Shown here piece after piece: positions 50,723-61,325 of a DNA stretch of 64,000 nt. The first letter of the stretch is position 1; each line of letters starts with the position of its first letter. The notes under the pieces were generated by a model that did no database searches, was not told where the DNA came from, and was given only the letters and a program-made list of their open reading frames with translations. A program made the translations under genes and the position numbers. This DNA comes from Marinoscillum pacificum (GTDB lineage Bacteria > Bacteroidota > Bacteroidia > Cytophagales > Cyclobacteriaceae), in contig NZ_JAMZMJ010000001.1 in NCBI RefSeq assembly GCF_024714495.1, positions 992,001-1,056,000 on the forward strand, in the 5' to 3' direction.

Positions 50723-53188
50723 ATGAGTTATTTGGTGGAGGGTTTTCCTGCAATTTTTCAAAGTAATTCCTTCGGTGTTTTAATCATCGGCCAGCAAGAT
50801 GAAGTCATAGATTTCAACTCAATGGCAGAAGAAATTTTTGCCCTTTCCAAAAATCAAAAATTACCACTAGCAGACCTTATCAACATCAAAAGTGATTCCA
50901 AGAATCCTGCATTAGCGGAAGGAAGACATCAAGGCACCAACCTGAATGGAAAGTTCATTTCCATTGATTATACCCAAATCAGTTCTGATCATCATAGTTA
51001 TAGAAGCTACATTCTGGTAACTGAAACACCAGAACATCAATTAAGAGAAGAAGATTTTGCAATTACAGTGATCAACAGCATGCCTGGCCAATTTTACCTC
51101 TTCAATGAAAAAGGTGAAATGCTGTTATGGAATCATCAAATGTCCTCTATGTCTGAGTATACTGATGATGAAATTAAAGCGATGGGTGCATTATCATTTT
51201 TCCCAGAAGAAGAACGTGAACTGGTGCTATCAAAAATCCAGGAGGTTTATGCACTTGGTGAGGCGCAAGTACAGGCACATTTGTTAACAAAGTCTGGCAA
51301 AAAGATTCCCCAAAAAGTTTCCGGTAAAAGAATTAAATACAAAGGCCAAACGTGCATAGTAGGACTGTCTACTGATATTTCAGATTTAGTGGACATGCAA
51401 GACACACTTAAATCATCAACTAAGCTTTTAAAGACAGCTCAAGAAATTGCTCAAATCGGTTATTGGGAATGGAACTGGTATGATGAAAAATACTATTGGT
51501 CTGACGAAATGTATGAGCTATGTGGTAGAAACAAGAATGATGGACCAATGCCACATCTTGAATTTGCCTCAAGGATACATCGAAAAGATTTGGAAGTACT
51601 CGAAAAAGAGCGAAAGCGTATTGTCAAAACACTTGAACCCGGTGAGGCTGAATTTCGATTTTTTACTCCTAATGATGAAATGCGGTATTTCACCGTTCAC
51701 ACTAGTCCAATAATTGATGAAAACGGCCGCTTCTGCAGTTTGGAAGGTACTATTCAAAACATCACTGAGCGTAAGAAGCACGAGGAAGATGTTCGTAATT
51801 CTAATGATCGATATGAATTGATTTCTAAAGCCACCAATGATGCCGTTTGGGACTGGGATATACGTGGCAATACGATCACAGGAAACAAAAACTATCTCAA
51901 ATTATTCAACATCAAAAACAATGAAGTTGAATTAACAGACGAAATGTTCTTTACGAGAATTCATCCAGAAGATAGAGAACGTGTACGATCAAATATGGCT
52001 GAAGCTTTATTTGACAATAAGAGCACGGTGACAGAAGAATATCGTTTTTTAAATCATGAAGAAGAGTATCGTGTGATATTGGATAGGTCTCAGATCATTT
52101 ATGATGAAAAGAGAATGCCAATTAGAATGGTTGGAGCCATGCAAGACATTACCCTTCAGAAAAATGCTGAGGATGAACTTCAAGATATAACCAATAGGTT
52201 ATCCCTGGCCACTACATCGGCTAAACTGGGCATATTTGACTGGAACCTGGAGTCTGATCAGCTTGATTGGAATGAATACATGTATGAAATTTTTGATGTA
52301 GACCCTTCCGATTTCGACAAGAAATTTCAGTCATGGCTGGACTGTTTACACCCACGAGATGTTCACAATTTCGATTTCATCAATAACCAGGATCTTCTCA
52401 AGAAGCGCCTTCTTCATACGCATGTTCGGGTTGTTCCTTTCTCGGAAGAAATCCGATACATTGAGATTCATGCTATCATCTTGCCAGACAAAGATCGGAA
52501 TGTGTATTCCGTCATTGGCGTCTGTAGAGATATTTCTGAAAAAGTATTGGCTGAGCAATCTATTAATAGAGCAATCATAAGCACCCAGGAAACCGAGCGA
52601 TTCGAAATTGGCCGAGAATTGCATGACAATGCCATTCAGGTGTTAATTGCAGCATTAATGAACCTGAATTACGTCAAAGAAAGATCATCTGACCCTACTG
52701 CAGCAGAAACAAGCATCGAACTGACCAAACGAGCCATAAACGAAATTCGAAGATTGTCACATCAGCTCGCTCCTTCTGATTTGGGATATCTCGCTATCGA
52801 AGAATCAATAAAAGATTTACTGAAGGAGATGAACTATAATGATGAGTTCGAAACGAATCTTGACATTGAAATTGATCCTGAAGCGTTCATTCCCAATGAG
52901 GTGAAAATGAACCTGTACCGCATAGTTCAGGAACAGCTTAGCAATATTCACAAACACTCTAAAGCCTCCAAAATCGATATTGAACTGACTGTAAAGCGAT
53001 TATCCTTACTTCTTAAAACAAGCGACAATGGAATTGGGTTTGACCTCAACTCCAGTCTCAAAGGAATTGGGATTAGCAATATGGAGCGAAGAGTAAAAAT
53101 GTTTGAGGGAGATATTGAAATCAAAAGCTCCCCCAAAAATGGATGTGAAATCGTTATTCAAATTCCGCTTGAAAGTATGGACTTTTAG
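50723..53188 (+). CDS. Multi-PAS sensor histidine kinase (HisKA_3 type)
   Basis: An 821-residue cytoplasmic-looking kinase without a transmembrane segment. About five PAS/PAC units occupy residues 1-610 (for example MPGQFYLFNEKGEMLLWNHQMS, GYWEWNWYDEKYYWSDEMYEL, AVWDWDIRGNTITGNKNYLKLF, GIFDWNLESDQLDWNEYMYEIF). The HisKA_3 dimerisation helix carries phospho-acceptor His634 in GRELHDNAIQV, and the HATPase_c domain shows LYRIVQEQLSNIHKHSKAS (N box), SDNGIGFD and LKGIGISNMERR. HisKA_3 kinases usually pair with NarL-type regulators. None is adjacent. A TATAGTTG box 8 nt before the ATG suggests a nearly leaderless mRNA. Confidence 0.9.
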   Translation: MSYLVEGFPAIFQSNSFGVLIIGQQDEVIDFNSMAEEIFALSKNQKLPLADLINIKSDSKNPALAEGRHQGTNLNGKFISIDYTQISSDHHSYRSYILVTETPEHQLREEDFAITVINSMPGQFYLFNEKGEMLLWNHQMSSMSEYTDDEIKAMGALSFFPEEERELVLSKIQEVYALGEAQVQAHLLTKSGKKIPQKVSGKRIKYKGQTCIVGLSTDISDLVDMQDTLKSSTKLLKTAQEIAQIGYWEWNWYDEKYYWSDEMYELCGRNKNDGPMPHLEFASRIHRKDLEVLEKERKRIVKTLEPGEAEFRFFTPNDEMRYFTVHTSPIIDENGRFCSLEGTIQNITERKKHEEDVRNSNDRYELISKATNDAVWDWDIRGNTITGNKNYLKLFNIKNNEVELTDEMFFTRIHPEDRERVRSNMAEALFDNKSTVTEEYRFLNHEEEYRVILDRSQIIYDEKRMPIRMVGAMQDITLQKNAEDELQDITNRLSLATTSAKLGIFDWNLESDQLDWNEYMYEIFDVDPSDFDKKFQSWLDCLHPRDVHNFDFINNQDLLKKRLLHTHVRVVPFSEEIRYIEIHAIILPDKDRNVYSVIGVCRDISEKVLAEQSINRAIISTQETERFEIGRELHDNAIQVLIAALMNLNYVKERSSDPTAAETSIELTKRAINEIRRLSHQLAPSDLGYLAIEESIKDLLKEMNYNDEFETNLDIEIDPEAFIPNEVKMNLYRIVQEQLSNIHKHSKASKIDIELTVKRLSLLLKTSDNGIGFDLNSSLKGIGISNMERRVKMFEGDIEIKSSPKNGCEIVIQIPLESMDF

Positions 53189-54186
53189 TAAAGCTCTTGC
53201 AGCGCTCTCATTTTTCGTATGAGTCTTGCTGACTCTTCGTAATCTAACGTTTGCTGACCGTCAGAAAACGCCTTTTCAGGTTTATCATGTATCTCGAAAA
53301 TTACGCCATCTGCTCCTGCTACTGTTGCTGCCAAAGCTACTGGCTCCACATGATCCCTGATACCAATTCCATGACTAGGATCAGCGATTACAGGTAAATG
53401 CGTCTTCTCTTTTAAGATAGGAATGGCATTGATGTCGAAGGTATTTCTTGATGCTTTTTCATACGTTCTGATACCTCGTTCACACAATAACAAACGCTCG
53501 TTACCTCCTGCAAACACGTATTCTGCACTATATAACAATTCATCAATTGTACCAGAAATACCACGTTTGATCATCACTGGCTTATCAACTCTTCCCAGCT
53601 CATCCAATAAATTGAAATTCTGCGTATTTCGAGCACCAACCTGGTATACATCCACATAGTCGTACATCTCCTCTATCTGAGAAACCTGCATCACTTCTGT
53701 TACGATTTTGATCCCAGCTTCTTTTGCGGCTTTGTACCACATCTTCAGGCCGTCTATTCCCATTCCACGGAAAGAGTAAGGAGAACTTCTAGGCTTATAA
53801 ACGCCTCCTCGCATAATCCTCAACCCATTCTCTTTCAGGTGATTAATAGTCTTTTCAATATTCTCTTCACCTTCGATGCTACATGGCCCAGCCATCATCG
53901 CAAAATTTCCATCTCCGATCAATACGCCATCACCAAGGTCGATTACGGTTCTGTTAACCTTCCACTTTCTAGAAACCAGTTTGAAGTCATCTGACACAAT
54001 ATGAATGTCTTTGATTCCTTCCAGATGACCGATGTTTCGAACATCAAATTTTTCCTTACCAATACCGATGATGTACTCTCCTTTTTGAGTTTTTACGTCA
54101 TTGGTTTTGTATTTAAGTGCCGAGACTTGTGCTTTTAATGCTTCGCGCTGCTCAGCAGTAATAGTGGGTTCAAGCTGAATAATCAT
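53185..54186 (-). CDS. 3-deoxy-7-phosphoheptulonate synthase (DAHP synthase), type I-beta
   Basis: A 333-residue enzyme that condenses phosphoenolpyruvate and erythrose 4-phosphate, the entry to the shikimate pathway. Residues 1-70 form a ferredoxin-like regulatory domain (MIIQLEPTITAEQREALKAQVSAL...IGIGKEKFDVRNIG) as in the Thermotoga maritima type, and the barrel follows (MAGPCSIEGEENIEKT, PRSSPYSFRGMG, QVGARNTQNFNLL, GERLLLCERGIRTYEK, PVIADPSHGIGIRDHV). It is the last gene of the trp operon, overlapping trpA by 4 nt and the histidine kinase stop by 4 nt. Feedback inhibition by an aromatic amino acid through the N-terminal domain is known for the family. Confidence 0.95.
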   Translation of the reverse strand: MIIQLEPTITAEQREALKAQVSALKYKTNDVKTQKGEYIIGIGKEKFDVRNIGHLEGIKDIHIVSDDFKLVSRKWKVNRTVIDLGDGVLIGDGNFAMMAGPCSIEGEENIEKTINHLKENGLRIMRGGVYKPRSSPYSFRGMGIDGLKMWYKAAKEAGIKIVTEVMQVSQIEEMYDYVDVYQVGARNTQNFNLLDELGRVDKPVMIKRGISGTIDELLYSAEYVFAGGNERLLLCERGIRTYEKASRNTFDINAIPILKEKTHLPVIADPSHGIGIRDHVEPVALAATVAGADGVIFEIHDKPEKAFSDGQQTLDYEESARLIRKMRALQELY

Positions 54187-54962
54187 GATACAGGTGATTT
54201 AACTTGTTGAATGTAGTTTTTAATATTTTCTGATGAGGAATTCTCCTCCATTAGTTTAATAAATGCACTTCCGATAATGGCTCCATCTGCATACTCACAG
54301 GCTTTGCTAAATGACTCATTGTCAGAGATACCAAAACCAATCAATCGCTTATTTTTCAAGCCCATTGACTTTATTTTTTGGAAGTAGCTGATTTGCTCGG
54401 TAGAGATGCCTGATTTTGCTCCTGTTGTACTTGCCGAAGAAACCATGTAAATAAACCCTTTACTCAAAGAGTCAATCTTTTGGATACGTTCTTCTGAAGT
54501 TTGTGGAGTAATTAGAAAAACATTATACAATCCATACTTCTCCAACACCGATTGATACATCACTTCATACTCATACATGGGTAAGTCTGGAAGAATCAAC
54601 CCATCTATTCCTACCTCTGCACATTTGGCACAGAAAGCCTCAAAACCATATTGCAAGACGGGGTTGATGTATCCCATTAGCAATACAGGCACTTTGACAT
54701 GCTCACGTAAAGTTGCTAACTGGTCAAATAACCTATTAAGTGTCATTCCATTTTCCAGTGCTACAGTAGAGCTCGCTTGAATGGTCGGCCCATCTGCTAC
54801 AGGATCAGAGAAAGGCAAGCCAATTTCAATCAAATCTGCCCCGCCCTCGTCTAATGCTTTAGCAATAGAAAGTGTGTCTTCCAGATTTGGGTAACCAGCT
54901 GTGAAATACACATTGAGTAACCGATCTTTTTTATCTATAAATGCCTGATCTATTCGATTCAT
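54183..54962 (-). CDS. trpA: Tryptophan synthase alpha subunit
   Basis: A 259-residue TIM barrel that cleaves indole-3-glycerol phosphate into indole and glyceraldehyde 3-phosphate. Catalytic Glu in DLIEIGLPFSDPVADG and Asp in GLILPDLPMYEYE; TGAKSG and GFGISDNES loops present. The trpB gene ends 85 nt upstream, an unusually wide gap that carries a short repeat. Confidence 0.95.
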   Translation of the reverse strand: MNRIDQAFIDKKDRLLNVYFTAGYPNLEDTLSIAKALDEGGADLIEIGLPFSDPVADGPTIQASSTVALENGMTLNRLFDQLATLREHVKVPVLLMGYINPVLQYGFEAFCAKCAEVGIDGLILPDLPMYEYEVMYQSVLEKYGLYNVFLITPQTSEERIQKIDSLSKGFIYMVSSASTTGAKSGISTEQISYFQKIKSMGLKNKRLIGFGISDNESFSKACEYADGAIIGSAFIKLMEENSSSENIKNYIQQVKSPVS

Positions 54963-54981
54963 TATTTTAGTCTTTTAGTTA

Positions 54982-55025
54982 ATAGTCCATAGTCGATAGC
55001 CCATGATTCACTTACTTTGGACTAT
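54982..55025. repeat. Imperfect repeats in the trpB-trpA spacer
   Basis: The 85-nt spacer holds ATAGTCCA (54982-54989) and TGGACTAT (55018-55025), an 8-bp inverted repeat, with further AGTCGATAG and CTATGGTCTAT fragments. It resembles remnants of an AT-rich intergenic repeat. Tight trpB-trpA coupling, usual in trp operons, is lost here. Confidence 0.4.
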
Positions 55026-55047
55026 AAACTAATTTCTATGGTCTATA

Positions 55048-56244
55048 TTAATATTTCCCCCATTTGATATAGGTCTCCAAGTCTTTATCACCTCGACCCG
55101 ACAAGTTCACAACAACAATGTCAGTTTCTTTCAACTCCACTTTATCCAAAGCAGCCAGAGCATGTGCACTTTCTACTGCTGGTATAATTCCTTCCAATTT
55201 GCTGAGTTGTACTCCTGAGATCATTGCCTCCTCGTCGGTTGCCCCAACGAATTTGGCTCTTCCGGTATCAAACAAGTGCGCGTGAAAAGGCCCTATCCCC
55301 GGGTAATCCAACCCTGCAGAAATACTATATGGCTCAACAACCTGACCATCATCCGTTTGCATCAAAATACTTCTACTTCCATGCAATACGCCCTCACGAC
55401 CTAGAGCAGTTGTAGCTGCAGATTTACCAGTTTCGTTTCCTAGACCAGCTGCTTCCACTGCCACTAACTTCACCGCTTCATCATCTAAATAATGATAGAA
55501 AGCACCCGCAGCATTACTTCCACCGCCAACACAAGCAATCACATAATCTGGGTTTTCTTGTCCTTCATGCTCTTTCAATTGCCATTTAATCTCTTCGCTG
55601 ATTACCGACTGAAAGCGTGCTACCAAATCGGGATATGGATGTGGTCCAACCACAGAACCGATAATGTAATGCGTGTCTTGAGGATGATTGATCCAATGCC
55701 GCATTGCCTCATTGGTCGCATCCTTAAGTGTCTTACTTCCACTAGTAGCTGGTCTCACCTCAGCACCCAAAATCTTCATGCGCTCAACGTTTGGCTTCTG
55801 ACGAGCCATATCAATTTCACCCATGTATACCGTACACTCAAGTCCCATCAGCGCACAAACAGTAGCTGTAGCCACACCATGCTGACCAGCACCAGTCTCA
55901 GCAATTATTCGTTTTTTACCAAGTGCTTGTGCTAAAAGTATCTGACCAATGGTATTGTTCACTTTATGCGCTCCAGTGTGGCACAAGTCTTCCCTCTTCA
56001 AATAGATTTTAGCCCCATATTGCTCAGACAATCTGCCAGCGAAATATAGTGGTGTAGGTCTACCAACATAATCCTTAAGCAATTTTTGAAAGTCCTTTTG
56101 AAACGCATCAGAATTCATGATTTCCAAATACGCATTCTTCAATTCCTCCACGTTTGGATACAACATTTCAGGAATGTATGCTCCTCCAAATTTTCCAAAG
56201 TAGCCCCTTTCGTCTACTAAATATTTTGATTTCACTTCGCTCAT
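55048..56244 (-). CDS. trpB: Tryptophan synthase beta subunit
   Basis: A 398-residue PLP enzyme that joins indole and serine to tryptophan. PLP-Lys in [19 protein letters not shown], substrate loop [27 protein letters not shown], phosphate loop [21 protein letters not shown], and [13 protein letters not shown] at the C-terminus. The start overlaps the trpF stop by 4 nt. Confidence 0.97.
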
Positions 56245-56840
56245 AATTGATGCTTAAATGATTTAATCTTTTGTATGTCTTTCACAGCCGGTGCTATTTC
56301 AAATCGGCTGTTGATATCCACTGCATAAAGCTGAGGAATGTTTAATGCTTTGATGGATTCCAGATCTTCTAAATCTATGCCTCCACTTAGAAAGAAAGGC
56401 TTTTCCAAATCATACGATTCCAGAATACTCCAATCAAATTTTTGTCCGCTACCTCCATGCTGTGGTGTTTTGGTATCAAACAAGAAGTAATCCACTGTTG
56501 ATTCATAAGGTTTCATATCTTCGAGTGGAAGCTGATCCATTACCCCAAATACTTTGATCACTGTAAAACCTAATTGCTTCAATTCCTTTGCCTGTTCAAC
56601 TGACTCACTACCATGCAATTGAACCATTTCAAAACCAAACTTTTTTGATTTCTCCTTAATGACTTCAGTCGATTCATTGACAAAAACCCCAACTGTCGCA
56701 ACATCCAGATCTGTCTGTGGTGACTCTTCCACATATCTCGCACTTTTTGGATAGAAGATCATTCCCATAAAATCTGGCTTCACCTCCATCAACTCCCGGA
56801 TATTATCCGACTCCCGCATGCCACAAACTTTCAGTTTCAT
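56241..56840 (-). CDS. trpF: Phosphoribosylanthranilate isomerase
   Basis: A 199-residue barrel that performs the Amadori step of tryptophan synthesis. Catalytic Cys in [12 protein letters not shown], then [20 protein letters not shown], Asp in [21 protein letters not shown], and [13 protein letters not shown]. Its start lies 8 nt beyond the end of an inverted repeat bounding the GxxExxY cassette. Confidence 0.94.
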
Positions 56841-56848
56841 TTTTTTTC

Positions 56849-57346
56849 TTAACCGCTGAGCCCCTGAGTCCTCAGAGAGGAATGTTCTACATGTTTAAAT
56901 TCTATTTATCTTGATAGTATTTATTGATCAACCTTCTGATACCATCTTTAACTCTGTATTCATTAAAATTTATCAGCAAACCGATTTTACAATTTGCTAG
57001 TTTCAAATAAGTGAGAATTTGAGCTAAATGAACATCTTCAATACCTTTAACCGCCTTCAATTCCACAACAACCTTGTCCTCAAGTAATAAATCAATTCGA
57101 TAACCACATTCCAACTGAATTCCTTTATATACCACTGGCATCGCTTTCTCTCTTTCTACTTTCAATCCAACCTCACCTAACTCGAACGCAAGACATTCAC
57201 TATATGCAGATTCAAGAAGACCCGGACCTAATTCTGAATGCACCTTGATTGCAGATCCTATAATAATGTTGGTGATATCATTGATTTCCATAAACTATTC
57301 AATTTGGCCAGTCAGAACTCCGATTTCTATGCTTCTCTGCGGTTAA
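56849..57346. mobile_element. Putative GxxExxY cassette with 12-bp terminal inverted repeats
   Basis: TTAACCGCTGAG (56849-56860) and CTCTGCGGTTAA (57335-57346) are inverted repeats with one mismatch in 12. They enclose only the GxxExxY gene and its flanks. The right end meets the trpC stop codon within 2 nt and the left end lies 8 nt before the trpF start, as if a segment had been inserted at the trpC-trpF junction. A second small palindrome CTGAG-TC-CTCAG is at 56864-56875. No transposase is present. Confidence 0.5.
56902..57291 (-). CDS. GxxExxY protein (PDDEXK-like nuclease fold)
   Basis: A 129-residue protein of the GxxExxY family: SELGPGLLESAYSECLAFEL at the N-terminus holds the name-giving motif, followed by YRIDLLLEDKVVVELKAVKGIEDVHLAQILTYLKLANCKIGLLINF. 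The Asp...Glu-x-Lys pattern (RIDLLLEDKVVVELKAV) suggests the PDDEXK nuclease fold. Its function is unknown; copies are often scattered in Bacteroidota genomes. It stands between trpC and trpF, flanked by inverted repeats, and has no link to tryptophan synthesis. Confidence 0.85.
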   Translation of the reverse strand: MEINDITNIIIGSAIKVHSELGPGLLESAYSECLAFELGEVGLKVEREKAMPVVYKGIQLECGYRIDLLLEDKVVVELKAVKGIEDVHLAQILTYLKLANCKIGLLINFNEYRVKDGIRRLINKYYQDK

Positions 57347-57347
57347 A

Positions 57348-58151
57348 TTAAACCTTAGAACTTTGCAGTTTGATCTGTTTTACAAAGTCTCTACACGCTT
57401 TTTCAGGACTACCTTTTTGCATGAAGTACTCTCCTATTAAGAAACCTTCGAATCCATGGCTCATCAGATCCACAACTACCGCAGGATCATTAATTCCACT
57501 TTCAGAAACTTTCACAAAGTCATTCGGAATGAGTTCTGCCAGATCCTTAGATGTTTGAATAGTTGTTTCAAACGTGGACAGATTTCTGTTATTTACTCCT
57601 AATAAATCAATGTGTGGATTAAGAGTACTTTCCAACTCTTCTTTATTGTGTACTTCCAACAGCACTTCCAGCCCTAAAGACTGAGCAAAAGCACCAAGTG
57701 ACTTCACTTGCTCTGGTGTTAGCGCTGCTGCAATTAATAAAATCACATCTGCTCCTATTGATTTAGCTTCAATGATTTGATACTCATCTACAATGAAGTC
57801 TTTTCTAAGAATTGGGCAGAAGTTGAAACTACGTGCTGTAATCAAATCTTCATTTTTACCACCGAAGTATTTCGAATCAGTAAGAACGGACAACCCTGAA
57901 GCTCCAGCCTGCATGTACCCAATAGTCGTCTTCTCAACTTTTGCACTTGAATTGATGATTCCTTTAGAAGGCGATTGACGCTTGAACTCCGCAATAATTC
58001 CAACCTTATCTTCTCTTCTGATATATTTTTTCAGTGAAACTGCTTTACTGGAGAAATAGGTACTTTGCTCCAATAACTTCACTGGGTAGAGACTTTTGCG
58101 TTGCTCTACTTCTACTTTCTTATCTGCAATAATTTGATCTAGAATACTCAT
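57348..58151 (-). CDS. trpC: Indole-3-glycerol phosphate synthase
   Basis: A 267-residue barrel that closes the indole ring from CdRP. Catalytic Lys/Glu motifs: GIIAEFKRQSPSKG, LSVLTDSKYFGG, CPILRKDFIVDEYQI, LLEVHNKEELE, LGVNNRNLSTFET and VSESGINDP. The start shares 1 nt with the trpD stop. The stop is followed directly by the GxxExxY cassette boundary. Confidence 0.96.
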   Translation of the reverse strand: MSILDQIIADKKVEVEQRKSLYPVKLLEQSTYFSSKAVSLKKYIRREDKVGIIAEFKRQSPSKGIINSSAKVEKTTIGYMQAGASGLSVLTDSKYFGGKNEDLITARSFNFCPILRKDFIVDEYQIIEAKSIGADVILLIAAALTPEQVKSLGAFAQSLGLEVLLEVHNKEELESTLNPHIDLLGVNNRNLSTFETTIQTSKDLAELIPNDFVKVSESGINDPAVVVDLMSHGFEGFLIGEYFMQKGSPEKACRDFVKQIKLQSSKV

Positions 58152-59143
58152 TATTGATTCACTGCTAAAAAGTTTTTGAATGATTCTAAGGCTTTTCCTG
58201 AGTTCAGAGACTCTCTCGCCTGCTCAATTCCTTGTTGAATTGAAATTTGTTTTCCTGTTGCTATTGCCAAACCAGCGTTAGCCAATATCGCCTGCTCTTG
58301 GGCTTCTGTTCCTTCATTATTAAGTACCTGCCGGAAGATCTTCGCAGAATCCTCAACAGTATCTCCACCGTGAAGCTGCTCCTGAGTCAGACGCTTTAGA
58401 CCTATATCCTCTGGCTCATATACCGCCTCTTCATTTCGAGAGATGATCTTAAATCCACCAGTTAATGAAACTTCATCGTATCCGTCCAAAGAATGCACAA
58501 TCATGAAGTTCTTATCCGTATTTTGATAGAGATATCCATAAAGTCTTGCCAACTCCAGACTAAATACTCCTACCAATTGATTCTTGGGGAATGCTGGATT
58601 TACCATTGGCCCAAGCATATTAAAGAAGGTCTTGATACCAAGCTCTCTTCGAACTGGCCCTACATTTTTCATGGCAGGGTGGAATAAAGGAGCATGTAAG
58701 AAACAAATTCCTGATTGCTCTATGCTCTTCTTTATCTGATCCACATCATTGGAGAACTTGGCTCCCATGCTTTCCAGTACGTTGGATGATCCACTAACTG
58801 AAGACACACCGTAGTTTCCATGTTTTACCACGTTTTGACCAGCTCCTGCCACCACAAATGATGATAGCGTAGAGATGTTGAAGGTGTTTTTACCATCCCC
58901 ACCAGTACCACAAAGGTCAATGGCATCATAATTTTCACCTGGCACCTTCACGCAAAGCTCCAACATCGCATCACGGAAACCTTCCAACTCCTCCACAGTA
59001 ATGGATCTCATCAAATAGACCGTCATAAAGGCAGCCATTTGACTATTGTTATATTGACCTGTAGCCAGATTTGACAAAATGGTAAATGCCTCGTCCTTAC
59101 TCAGAGATTGATACTTAAATAATTTATTGAGTACTTCTTTCAT
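58151..59143 (-). CDS. trpD: Anthranilate phosphoribosyltransferase
   Basis: A 330-residue class IV phosphoribosyltransferase using PRPP and anthranilate. PRPP motif DLCGTGGDGKNTFNISTLSSFVVAGAG, KHGNYGVSSVSGSSNVLESMG and FLHAPLFHPAMKNVGPVRRELGIKTFFNMLGPM. Normal length. Spaced 13 nt from trpG. Confidence 0.96.
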   Translation of the reverse strand: MKEVLNKLFKYQSLSKDEAFTILSNLATGQYNNSQMAAFMTVYLMRSITVEELEGFRDAMLELCVKVPGENYDAIDLCGTGGDGKNTFNISTLSSFVVAGAGQNVVKHGNYGVSSVSGSSNVLESMGAKFSNDVDQIKKSIEQSGICFLHAPLFHPAMKNVGPVRRELGIKTFFNMLGPMVNPAFPKNQLVGVFSLELARLYGYLYQNTDKNFMIVHSLDGYDEVSLTGGFKIISRNEEAVYEPEDIGLKRLTQEQLHGGDTVEDSAKIFRQVLNNEGTEAQEQAILANAGLAIATGKQISIQQGIEQARESLNSGKALESFKNFLAVNQ

Positions 59144-59156
59144 CTATAGCTGTTGA

Positions 59157-59738
59157 TTAGAGTTGTTCTTTTAACCAGTTATCAATCATTTGAATACCGT
59201 GCTCAGTCATGATGGATTCAGGGTGAAACTGCACACCTCGCACTTTATATTCAGCATGTTTGATAGCCATAATATTTCCAGACTCGTCTGTTGCCGTTAC
59301 TTTCAGGCAATCTGGTAATCCTGCAGGAGTTACTGCCCAGCTGTGATATCGACATACATTGAATTCGCCAGGAAGTCCTTCAAAAAGAACATCAGACTCA
59401 TCCGTCAAAACCGTTTTGGTAGCTACTCCATGAAATACAGTTGGTAAGTTGAATAACTCTGCTCCAAAGGACTCAGATATACCTTGATGTCCTAAGCATA
59501 CTCCCAAAATGCTCTTAGAATCGCTATAGCGCTTGATTACCTCCGGCATGATGCCTGCATCTTTTGGCAATCCAGGGCCTGGAGACAATAGTATTCTTTC
59601 AAAGTCAGCCACATAATCCACCGTAATTTTATCGTTGCGGTGTACTTCCAATTCATTCTCCAGACCTAACTCTCGAAGTATATGCACGAGGTTGTACGTG
59701 AACGAATCGTAATTATCGATAACTAATACCTTCTTCAT
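59157..59738 (-). CDS. trpG: Anthranilate synthase component II (glutamine amidotransferase)
   Basis: A 193-residue class I amidotransferase that feeds ammonia to TrpE. IDNYDSFTYNLVHILRELG, LSPGPGLPKDAG, nucleophile loop LGVCLGHQGISESFGAEL (Cys), HSWAV and VQFHPESIMTEHG (His-Glu). The start overlaps the trpE stop by 1 nt. It could also serve folate synthesis, as TrpG/PabA are often shared; no pabB is in the window. Confidence 0.95.
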   Translation of the reverse strand: MKKVLVIDNYDSFTYNLVHILRELGLENELEVHRNDKITVDYVADFERILLSPGPGLPKDAGIMPEVIKRYSDSKSILGVCLGHQGISESFGAELFNLPTVFHGVATKTVLTDESDVLFEGLPGEFNVCRYHSWAVTPAGLPDCLKVTATDESGNIMAIKHAEYKVRGVQFHPESIMTEHGIQMIDNWLKEQL

Positions 59739-61153
59739 TAATCGTTGATGTTTTCAGCCATTTTCATAGCAGACTCAAGGGCTGCCAACTTATTATATAC
59801 TTCCTGCACTTCACTCTTTGGGTCGGACTTGGACACGATTCCTGCCCCTGCCTGGAAGAACAATTTATTTGCCTTACTCAAGAATGTTCTGATCATAATG
59901 GCATGATTGAAATTACCTTTGAAGTCCATGAAACCAATTGCTCCACCATAAAATCCACGAGCGATGTTTTCATTTTCATCAATCAACTCCATAGCTCGGT
60001 ATTTTGGTGCGCCCGACAATGTTCCTGCAGGGAAGGTGCTCGCAACAATTTCTAATGGATCTGACTCAGGACGTAGTTTACCAGTCACCTTTGAAACCAA
60101 GTGAATTACATGGGAATAGTATTGCACTTCTTTATAAGTCTCAACTTTCACCTGATCAGAACTCTTGCTCAGATCATTTCTAGCCAGATCGACTAACATG
60201 ATGTGTTCAGAGTTTTCTTTCGGATCTTCAAGAAGCTTTTTAGCCAATTCCGCGTCTGCTGCGTCATCGCCAGTTCGTTTGAAGGTTCCAGCAATGGGGT
60301 AGATAACTGCTTCTCGATCTTTTACCACAATCTGTGCCTCTGGTGAAGAACCAAAGATCTTGTAGCTACCATAATCGAAATAAAATAAGTATGGTGATGG
60401 ATTTATAGATCTCAAGGCTCTGTAAACCTGGAATTCATCGCCTTTAAATCCGGTACTAAACTGTCTGGAAAATACTACCTGGAACACGTCTCCTATGTCA
60501 CAATGCTTGATTCCTTGCTTTACTCTTTCCAAAAACTCTTCATCCGTAAAGTTTGATGAGGTTTCGGTTGATTTATTAAAGCTAAATGATGGAATATTTC
60601 GCTGAGACAAAACATTCAATAGATCATTAAATGAAGCATCATCTGGCTCCTCAGTGTAGCACTCTATTAAATGACACTCATTTTTGAAGTGATCTAAAGC
60701 AATAATGTATTTGAATACGCAGTACTGAATCTGAGGTATTTGCGCTGATTCAGTTTTTACATTACTGAACGTAATGTCTTCATAGAACTGAACAGCATCA
60801 TACGCCATATAACCAAACAATCCTGTCTGTATGTGCTTAACCTCTTCATCTTCTACACTGAAATGCTCCAGAAAAGATCTCAAAGCAGGTAGAACTGTAG
60901 CAGATTGAAGCTCTTTCTTTTCGGTACTTCCATCTGGAAATGACATTTCCAACTGAAGATTTTCCAACTTAAAATTAGCCAGAGGATCACAGCAGATATA
61001 ACTAAATGCATTTTCCCCTCCATGATAGTCAGAACTCTCCAAAAGGAAGGATTTCGCGTACTTGTCACGGATTTTCAGATATAGGCCAACTGGCGTAATG
61101 GTATCCGCCAGCAGCTTTTTCTTCCGTATTTTCAACTTAAATTGGTTTTCCAT
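59738..61153 (-). CDS. trpE: Anthranilate synthase component I
   Basis: A 471-residue chorismate-using enzyme. Start chosen at the ATG just after the attenuator; an in-frame ATG 23 codons earlier would run through the terminator hairpin and gives no sensible N-terminus. The LLESSDYHGGENAFS stretch is the tryptophan-binding feedback site (LLES). Catalytic region: VVFSRQFSTGF, GSSPEAQIVV, PIAGTFKRTGDD, LVDLARNDL, STFPAGTLSGAPKYRAMELIDE and GFYGGAIGFMDFKG. Complete. Confidence 0.95.
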   Translation of the reverse strand: MENQFKLKIRKKKLLADTITPVGLYLKIRDKYAKSFLLESSDYHGGENAFSYICCDPLANFKLENLQLEMSFPDGSTEKKELQSATVLPALRSFLEHFSVEDEEVKHIQTGLFGYMAYDAVQFYEDITFSNVKTESAQIPQIQYCVFKYIIALDHFKNECHLIECYTEEPDDASFNDLLNVLSQRNIPSFSFNKSTETSSNFTDEEFLERVKQGIKHCDIGDVFQVVFSRQFSTGFKGDEFQVYRALRSINPSPYLFYFDYGSYKIFGSSPEAQIVVKDREAVIYPIAGTFKRTGDDAADAELAKKLLEDPKENSEHIMLVDLARNDLSKSSDQVKVETYKEVQYYSHVIHLVSKVTGKLRPESDPLEIVASTFPAGTLSGAPKYRAMELIDENENIARGFYGGAIGFMDFKGNFNHAIMIRTFLSKANKLFFQAGAGIVSKSDPKSEVQEVYNKLAALESAMKMAENIND

Positions 61154-61168
61154 AGTAAAGTATAGATC

Positions 61169-61198
61169 AAAAAAAAACCCGCTGTGATCAGCGGGTTT
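61169..61198 (-). terminator. trp attenuator (intrinsic terminator between leader peptide and trpE)
   Basis: On the minus strand AAACCCGCTG pairs perfectly with CAGCGGGTTT over a 4-nt loop (ATCA), followed by nine Ts: 10-bp stem and long T-run, the form of an efficient terminator. It lies 38 nt after the leader-peptide stop and 16 nt before the trpE ATG. I could not find a convincing antiterminator by eye. Confidence 0.85.
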
Positions 61199-61235
61199 CT
61201 TGATGTTAATATTATTATTCACATACCTCTACTGT

Positions 61236-61289
61236 TCACAGTCTGCTAAGATCTATGTGCCACCAGTAGTATGTGTTCATTGTTTTCAT
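61236..61289 (-). CDS. trpL: trp operon leader peptide with tandem Trp codons
   Basis: A 17-codon ORF, MKTMNTYYWWHIDLSRL, upstream of the attenuator. Two Tyr codons (TAC TAC) precede two adjacent Trp codons (TGG TGG at 61260-61265). The stop is TGA at 61236-61238. A paired segment CACATA (61254-61259), right after the Trp codons, matches TATGTG (61220-61225), a likely pause hairpin enclosing a small ACTGT/ACAGT stem; a ribosome stalled at Trp would cover CACATA. A -7-like TACATTAG (minus strand, 61294-61301), 21 nt from a TTG (61323-61325), lies just upstream, so the mRNA would start at about the leader's own ATG. Confidence 0.85.
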   Translation of the reverse strand: MKTMNTYYWWHIDLSRL

Positions 61290-61293
61290 GCCG

Positions 61294-61325
61294 CTAATGT
61301 AGCATCGTATCTGTTGTAAATCCAA
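61294..61325 (-). promoter_or_regulatory. trp operon promoter
   Basis: Minus-strand TTG (61323-61325), 21-nt spacer, TACATTAG (61294-61301; one mismatch to TAnnTTTG). Only 4 nt separate it from the trpL ATG. Confidence 0.5.

Follow-up and report, generated by a model that had tools for sequence, protein, structure and literature searches.

The trp operon in the window (the whole stretch of 64,000 nucleotides that was analysed) is preceded by a conserved trp attenuator, a divergent form missed by Rfam, which appears to be leaderless and whose antiterminator has now been placed by modelling. We assign a probability of about 0.9 to its controlling transcription by ribosome-mediated attenuation in response to charged tRNA-Trp. 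This kind of attenuation had been proposed in the original prediction, and it agrees with the position of the element, its conserved Trp codons, its terminator and alternative antiterminator, and the spread of the element across the phylogeny. Three features by which the class is recognised were found here: a short ORF with tandem Trp codons lies before the operon, a terminator lies between this ORF and trpE, and, in silico and for nascent RNA, the antiterminator forms only when the ribosome is at the Trp codons.

The first gene of the operon is trpE, which encodes component I of anthranilate synthase (59738..61153, minus strand, with its start ATG at 61153-61151). Its best family match is TIGR00564, with 425.7 bits, a score below the curated cut-off of 517.7. 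The genes trpG, trpD, trpC, a gene for a GxxExxY protein, trpF, trpB, trpA, and the gene for DAHP synthase follow on the same strand (53185..59738), as named with NCBIfam; trpF takes its name from a best match below the cut-off, and the other downstream genes each have at least one model above it. The GxxExxY gene (TIGR04256, 151 bits) occupies positions 56902-57291 (minus strand), inside the operon between trpC and trpF. The best matches to trpE come from Marinoscillum and from other records titled Flammeovirgaceae or Cyclobacteriaceae. The nearest record, L001 (PBTY01000019.1), is titled 'Rickettsiales bacterium', its trpE is 96% identical to that of the window, and it has the same leader peptide; it is probably a mislabelled genome of the window's clade. 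Among the 20 loci L001-L020, seven (L005, L006, L008, L010, L011, L014, and L016) also hold a gene for Bacteroidales_small_SRP RNA (RF04183) approximately 1.6-2.5 kb upstream of trpE.

All the parts of the leader are located on the minus strand. The ORF of the leader peptide, MKTMNTYYWWHIDLSRL, extends from 61289 to 61236, where it ends in a UGA stop codon (61238-61236), and ORFs with a run of Trp codons are found in the same place in relatives. The tandem Trp codons, UGGUGG (61260..61265), constitute the putative sensor. The intrinsic terminator (stem and U-run, 61169-61195) consists of the hairpin CCCGCUG-AUCA-CAGCGGG (61178..61195), identified by folding and by an alignment of 23 leaders, and a run of nine T (61169..61177). 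Its stem, CCCGCTG/CAGCGGG, is lengthened by A-U pairs, and the terminator ends 15 nt 5' of the ATG of trpE. The sequence bears out what had been described: a YYWW peptide, in which two Tyr codons precede two Trp codons, a hairpin, and a run of nine Ts. The 131 nt between 61160 and 61290 fold with an energy of -41.5 kcal/mol versus -21.1 ± 2.6 for 200 dinucleotide shuffles (z -7.7), none of which folded equally well. As regards the pause hairpin, the original prediction had taken CACATA, 3' of the Trp codons, as one of its strands, whereas the best (MFE) fold, together with the alignment, uses CACAUAC over the Thr-Tyr codons (strand 1, 61275-61269), which pairs with GUAUGUG (strand 2, 61226-61220) to form the 1:2 helix.

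The combination of leader and terminator is conserved upstream of trpE. A script that looked for an intrinsic terminator preceded by an ORF containing two Trp codons, either neighbouring or with one codon between them, found this pair in 222 of 250 Bacteroidota regions, versus one of 1250 dinucleotide shuffles and none of 250 reverse strands, and the check that had been proposed, that Trp codons and terminator be kept in relatives, thus turned out in favour of the attenuator. The 250 regions, in which the window is counted once (L081), comprise 80 genome-contig loci (the best 80 of 222 relatives), 110 regions that belong to the family of the window, and 60 that represent other families of its order, of which 79, 99, and 44, respectively, hold the element. 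The family set includes 110 of the 111 genomes with a match: G087, in which the gene is only partial where the contig ends, was excluded, as was a second, partial match in G115. The 60 regions from other families were picked for spread among the genomes with a match. The sets of 80 loci and of the family share species, and the upstream regions of L005 and L086 are identical; the 222 units correspond to 208 distinct sequence pairs and 211 distinct leader cores. A sample of the phylum added 25 of 27 further regions from the same class (all the matching genomes of the class outside the order) and 12 of 37 from other classes (picked for spread among 96), after excluding from the count L256, L260, L266, L267, and L269, whose genomes had already been sampled. 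The element therefore occurs widely within the class, and its distribution beyond the class is patchy. Where record titles do not give them, order and class are named from general taxonomic background.

Reading of individual regions refines these counts. In ten of the 11 same-family regions missed by the script, L133 being the exception, a leader with a run of Trp codons and a hairpin resembling a terminator can be read, which the rules had rejected; therefore, 99 of 110 is an underestimate. False calls are L197 (a 43-residue frame) and the first unit given for L021. Among the other families of the order, the script found no leader in 16 of the 60 regions, including L225 and L229, which are shortened by contig ends; ten of the regions without a script-found leader were read, and some had no Trp-run leader (L211, L213, and L215, for example). 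In L227 and L245, a leader-like ORF with a single Trp is followed by a terminator. The 206 distinct leader peptides mostly hold three Trp codons (158 peptides) or two (39 peptides). All seven pairs of the terminator persist throughout the alignment of 23 leaders, which includes that of the window and has one gap here, and four of these pairs show changes on both sides. In the same leaders, the inner five pairs of the 1:2 helix are kept in 86.5% of cells and the outer two in 51.2%; this helix is maintained mostly by one-sided G-U changes, with a two-sided change in two cells, and just 67 of the 208 loci have a 1:2 helix that ranks with the top 5% of its shuffles.

The leader had also been described as nearly leaderless in the original prediction, and its promoter fits this description, as a predicted start. 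A -7 box, TACATTAG (61301-61294, minus strand), which is one letter off TAnnTTTG, ends 4 nt before the ATG of the leader, and a -33 element, TTG (61323..61325), is situated 21 nt 5' of this box. The consensus, TTTG/TAnnTTTG, is that of two published studies (PMC6847099, PMC7366714). In Flavobacterium psychrophilum, the -7 box is placed at -12 to -5 (PMC9723704), and in F. johnsoniae, a candidate whose box lay 4 or 5 nt from the start was accepted as a probable promoter (PMC6847099). With the 4-nt spacing and this published position, +1 would coincide with the A that opens the leader AUG (61289), so that the transcript probably starts at the initiation codon, that is, without a 5' leader. Across the 211 distinct leaders, a strict pattern (TAnnTTnG with a -33 TTG, 4-8 nt before ATG) was found in 87, versus none of 187 control genes, although the share of leaderless genes among these controls may be underestimated, their starts having been picked mechanically. 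Under looser criteria, the counts were 100 of 211 and eight of 187. The remaining 124 leaders do not follow the strict spacing pattern, and in some, such as several from Flavobacterium, the boxes are 10-20 nt away; therefore, close spacing is common, not universal. As for the background in the phylum, published work reports Bacteroidetes to be without Shine-Dalgarno sequences (PMC6847099) and leaderless messages to be uncommon: they make up 5.5% of mRNAs in F. psychrophilum (PMC9723704), 5' UTRs shorter than 10 nt are 3.7% of those of B. thetaiotaomicron (PMC7366714), and 87% of the predicted transcripts of F. johnsoniae have a leader longer than 10 nt (PMC6847099).

An antiterminator had not been found by eye in the original prediction. 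A duplex search and state folding now point to one, in which CUGUGAACAG (61232..61241, minus strand), a strand that includes the stop codon of the leader, pairs with CUGAUCACAG (61182..61191), which is made up of the inner 5' arm of the terminator, its loop, and its inner 3' arm. The predicted duplex CUGUGAACAG:CUGAUCACAG holds six pairs, an A-A mismatch, and then three to four pairs, and with its six contiguous pairs is shorter than most: helices of at least seven contiguous pairs appear in 168 of 208 loci, a share that falls to 48% when the strands of different loci are combined and to 32% with shuffled strands. In L002, CUGUGAACAG:CUGUUCGCAG pairs at all ten positions; the flavobacterial loci present UGUCGUGA:UCACGACA, and L012 presents GCUAACAGG:CCUGUUGGC, with a UAA stop codon inside GCUAACAGG. 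Judged from these sequences, the candidate antiterminator turns over between subclades with its pairing retained.

Over the 208 distinct loci, duplexes with the terminator of the same locus average -16.5 kcal/mol, compared with -12.4 for the terminators of other loci and -10.3 for shuffled strands. The duplex is inside the best 5% of shuffles in 142 of the 208 and inside the best 5% of other loci's terminators in 69; set against the terminators of 60 other loci, the own pairing is stronger than their mean in 181 and stronger than 80% of them in 118. In 168 distinct loci, the 5' strand of the best duplex overlaps the stop codon of the leader. In a MAFFT alignment of the 23 leaders, no pair of the antiterminator shows a change on both sides, and such changes are visible only between subclades; the rows in which the helix is shifted (L012, L015, L017, L018, and L110) are misregistered in this alignment, where 75.9% of antiterminator cells are paired versus 31-46% when slid, and where 27 of 500 column shuffles are as good. 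As the alignment yields no column-wise covariation, the case for the antiterminator rests on the comparison of own, cross, and shuffled pairings and on state folding. In the latter, which assumes a ribosome footprint of approximately 30 nt around the P site, a nascent RNA ending at the 3' strand of the antiterminator forms it with a probability of 0.99 when the ribosome is on the Trp codons, of 0.01 without a ribosome (the 1:2 helix, with a probability of 0.98, then occupying the antiterminator strand), and of 0.00 with the ribosome at the stop codon. For the full-length RNA at equilibrium, the terminator prevails whatever the state of the ribosome; therefore, switching must be kinetic, taking place while RNA polymerase moves.

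From these parts, their conservation, and their state-dependent folding in silico, we infer the start of transcription, the stalling of the ribosome, and the switching as follows. RNA polymerase would begin at or beside the leader AUG, so a ribosome could load on the bare 5' end. When Trp is scarce, the ribosome would stall on UGGUGG and cover strand 1 of the 1:2 helix, leaving CUGUGAACAG free to pair with CUGAUCACAG as this emerges, before the rest of the 3' arm of the terminator exists, and trpE would be transcribed. When Trp is plentiful, the ribosome would reach UGA and occupy CUGUGAACAG, no antiterminator would form, and the terminator would act 15 nt before trpE. If the leader is not translated, the 1:2 helix would hide the antiterminator strand, and transcription would stop too.

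Since the terminator is the most stable fold of the full-length RNA in all states, it might be thought to be a standing intrinsic terminator or a polarity element before trpE, with a short ORF that is untranslated and meaningless. However, such an element would not explain the in-frame Trp runs that precede the terminator in 222 of 250 regions versus one of 1250 shuffles, nor the overlap between antiterminator strand and stop codon seen at 168 of 208 loci, and we consider it very improbable. Just as improbable is a sensor of free Trp, of the protein or riboswitch type, operating on the same terminator with an incidental peptide: it is compatible with the sequence alone, but a search of the whole window gave no match to any Rfam family at gathering scores, and in silico the position of the ribosome accounts for the switching elements. 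Ribosome-mediated attenuation is therefore preferred to both.

Two further alternatives concern how the leader peptide of this attenuator is read. The original prediction had suggested that the Tyr-Tyr pair might couple the attenuator to tyrosine, so that the YYWW codons would exert a joint Tyr and Trp control, as DAHP synthase, encoded by the last gene of the operon, is part of it; indeed, the window and its nearest relatives (L001, L002, L003, L006, and L085) all retain YYWW. Nevertheless, only 49 of the 206 distinct peptides have a Tyr at either of the two codons preceding the first Trp, and 115 contain no Tyr at all. Moreover, in the window's clade the Thr-Tyr codons (ACAUAY) are one strand of the 1:2 helix, which offers an alternative reason for their conservation. 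According to these counts and to the role of the codons in the helix, coupling to tyrosine is decidedly unlikely, and this part of the original prediction is left unsupported. Somewhat less unlikely, though still doubtful, is that translation starts at a second AUG (M4), which would provide a 5' UTR of approximately 9 nt and a message that is not leaderless. An in-frame ATG does occur 9 nt 3' of the first in the window, L001, and L006, but close relatives without this second ATG (L002, L003, L005, and L085) share the one located 4 nt from the -7 box, which argues for initiation of the leader peptide there.

The attenuator layout is already known in the phylum, as the Rfam family RF01692 (2010) covers flavobacterial relatives. 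This family, Bacteroid-trp, is the 'Bacteroidete tryptophan peptide leader RNA' of Weinberg 2010, as named in PMC2864571, and its presence in F. psychrophilum is recorded in PMC6414381. Like the window element, it is situated upstream of trpE in the same phylum and holds a Trp-rich leader peptide and a 1:2 hairpin. Because the RF01692 model breaks off at the 5' terminator arm, GGCUUGUC, it lacks the antiterminator and the remainder of the terminator. The window element scores 20.5 bits (E 6.9) against RF01692, whose gathering score is 49, and is therefore not assigned to this family; against the enterobacterial RF00513 (Trp_leader), it reaches 27.4 bits, with a gathering score of 41. At its threshold, RF01692 picks up 43 of the 80 best loci among the 222 relatives: none of the 20 in L001-L020 and 43 of the 60 in L021-L080. 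A model, R1, built from 23 leaders of the window's clade, none of them from L019-L080, and whose E-values are rough, matches at the leader 39 of the 62 loci L019-L080 with E < 0.01, including 30 of the 43 that are RF01692-positive, and its best match elsewhere in that search has an E of 0.08. Because R1 finds RF01692-positive leaders, these members and the leaders of the window's clade very probably belong to a single continuum that Rfam covers at one end. On reading, the two highest-scoring additional hits of R1 in the genome that contains the window (41.9 and 36.7 bits) have a terminator and no Trp leader, and were rejected.

With the enterobacterial trp attenuator (RF00513), the window element shares a leader peptide with tandem Trp, a 1:2 helix, a terminator, and an alternative antiterminator. 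In contrast to it, the element apparently lacks a 5' UTR, and its antiterminator strand includes the stop codon. The partner of this strand is also different: in the E. coli trp attenuator, the antiterminator is formed with a separate segment 3, whereas in the window it would be formed with the loop and inner arms of the terminator itself. A likeness in the start of the RNA is offered by rnTrpL/peTrpL from the alphaproteobacterium Sinorhizobium meliloti, a Trp attenuator RNA which begins with the AUG of the leader peptide, as reported in PMC7298713; such a start is predicted here, and the likeness is one of description. In F. psychrophilum, strong clues of leader-peptide attenuation before amino-acid operons are mentioned in PMC9723704.

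In some relatives, the attenuator is duplicated. Two units of leader and terminator, each with its own Trp-rich peptide and terminator, are arranged in series upstream of trpE in eight of the 110 same-family regions, five of which were recognised by the script (L130, L169, L174, L185, and L186) and three by double model matches and reading (L163, L171, and L188). Tandem attenuators are described for mgtCBR in PMC3641672. In one open-licence library of papers, no report was found of this antiterminator, of a leaderless start of a trp leader in Bacteroidota, or of tandem trp units. What appears to be new here is a divergent, apparently leaderless relative of Bacteroid-trp with a placed antiterminator.

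The family RF01692 misses part of the true distribution of these leaders, and it gains an explicit, predicted antiterminator. Attenuation requires a ribosome close behind RNA polymerase. We tentatively propose, at somewhat less than even odds, that there is a Bacteroidota-wide selection for leaderless trp attenuators, in which the nascent 5' end would be gripped on leaving RNA polymerase and would stay coupled until the decision approximately 100 nt later; because the antiterminator contains the stop codon of the leader, one strand would read both ribosome positions, and some lineages may stack two switches for a sharper response. A conserved and apparently leaderless leader peptide of this kind would be a compact natural assay for transcription-translation coupling and for leaderless initiation in Bacteroidota.
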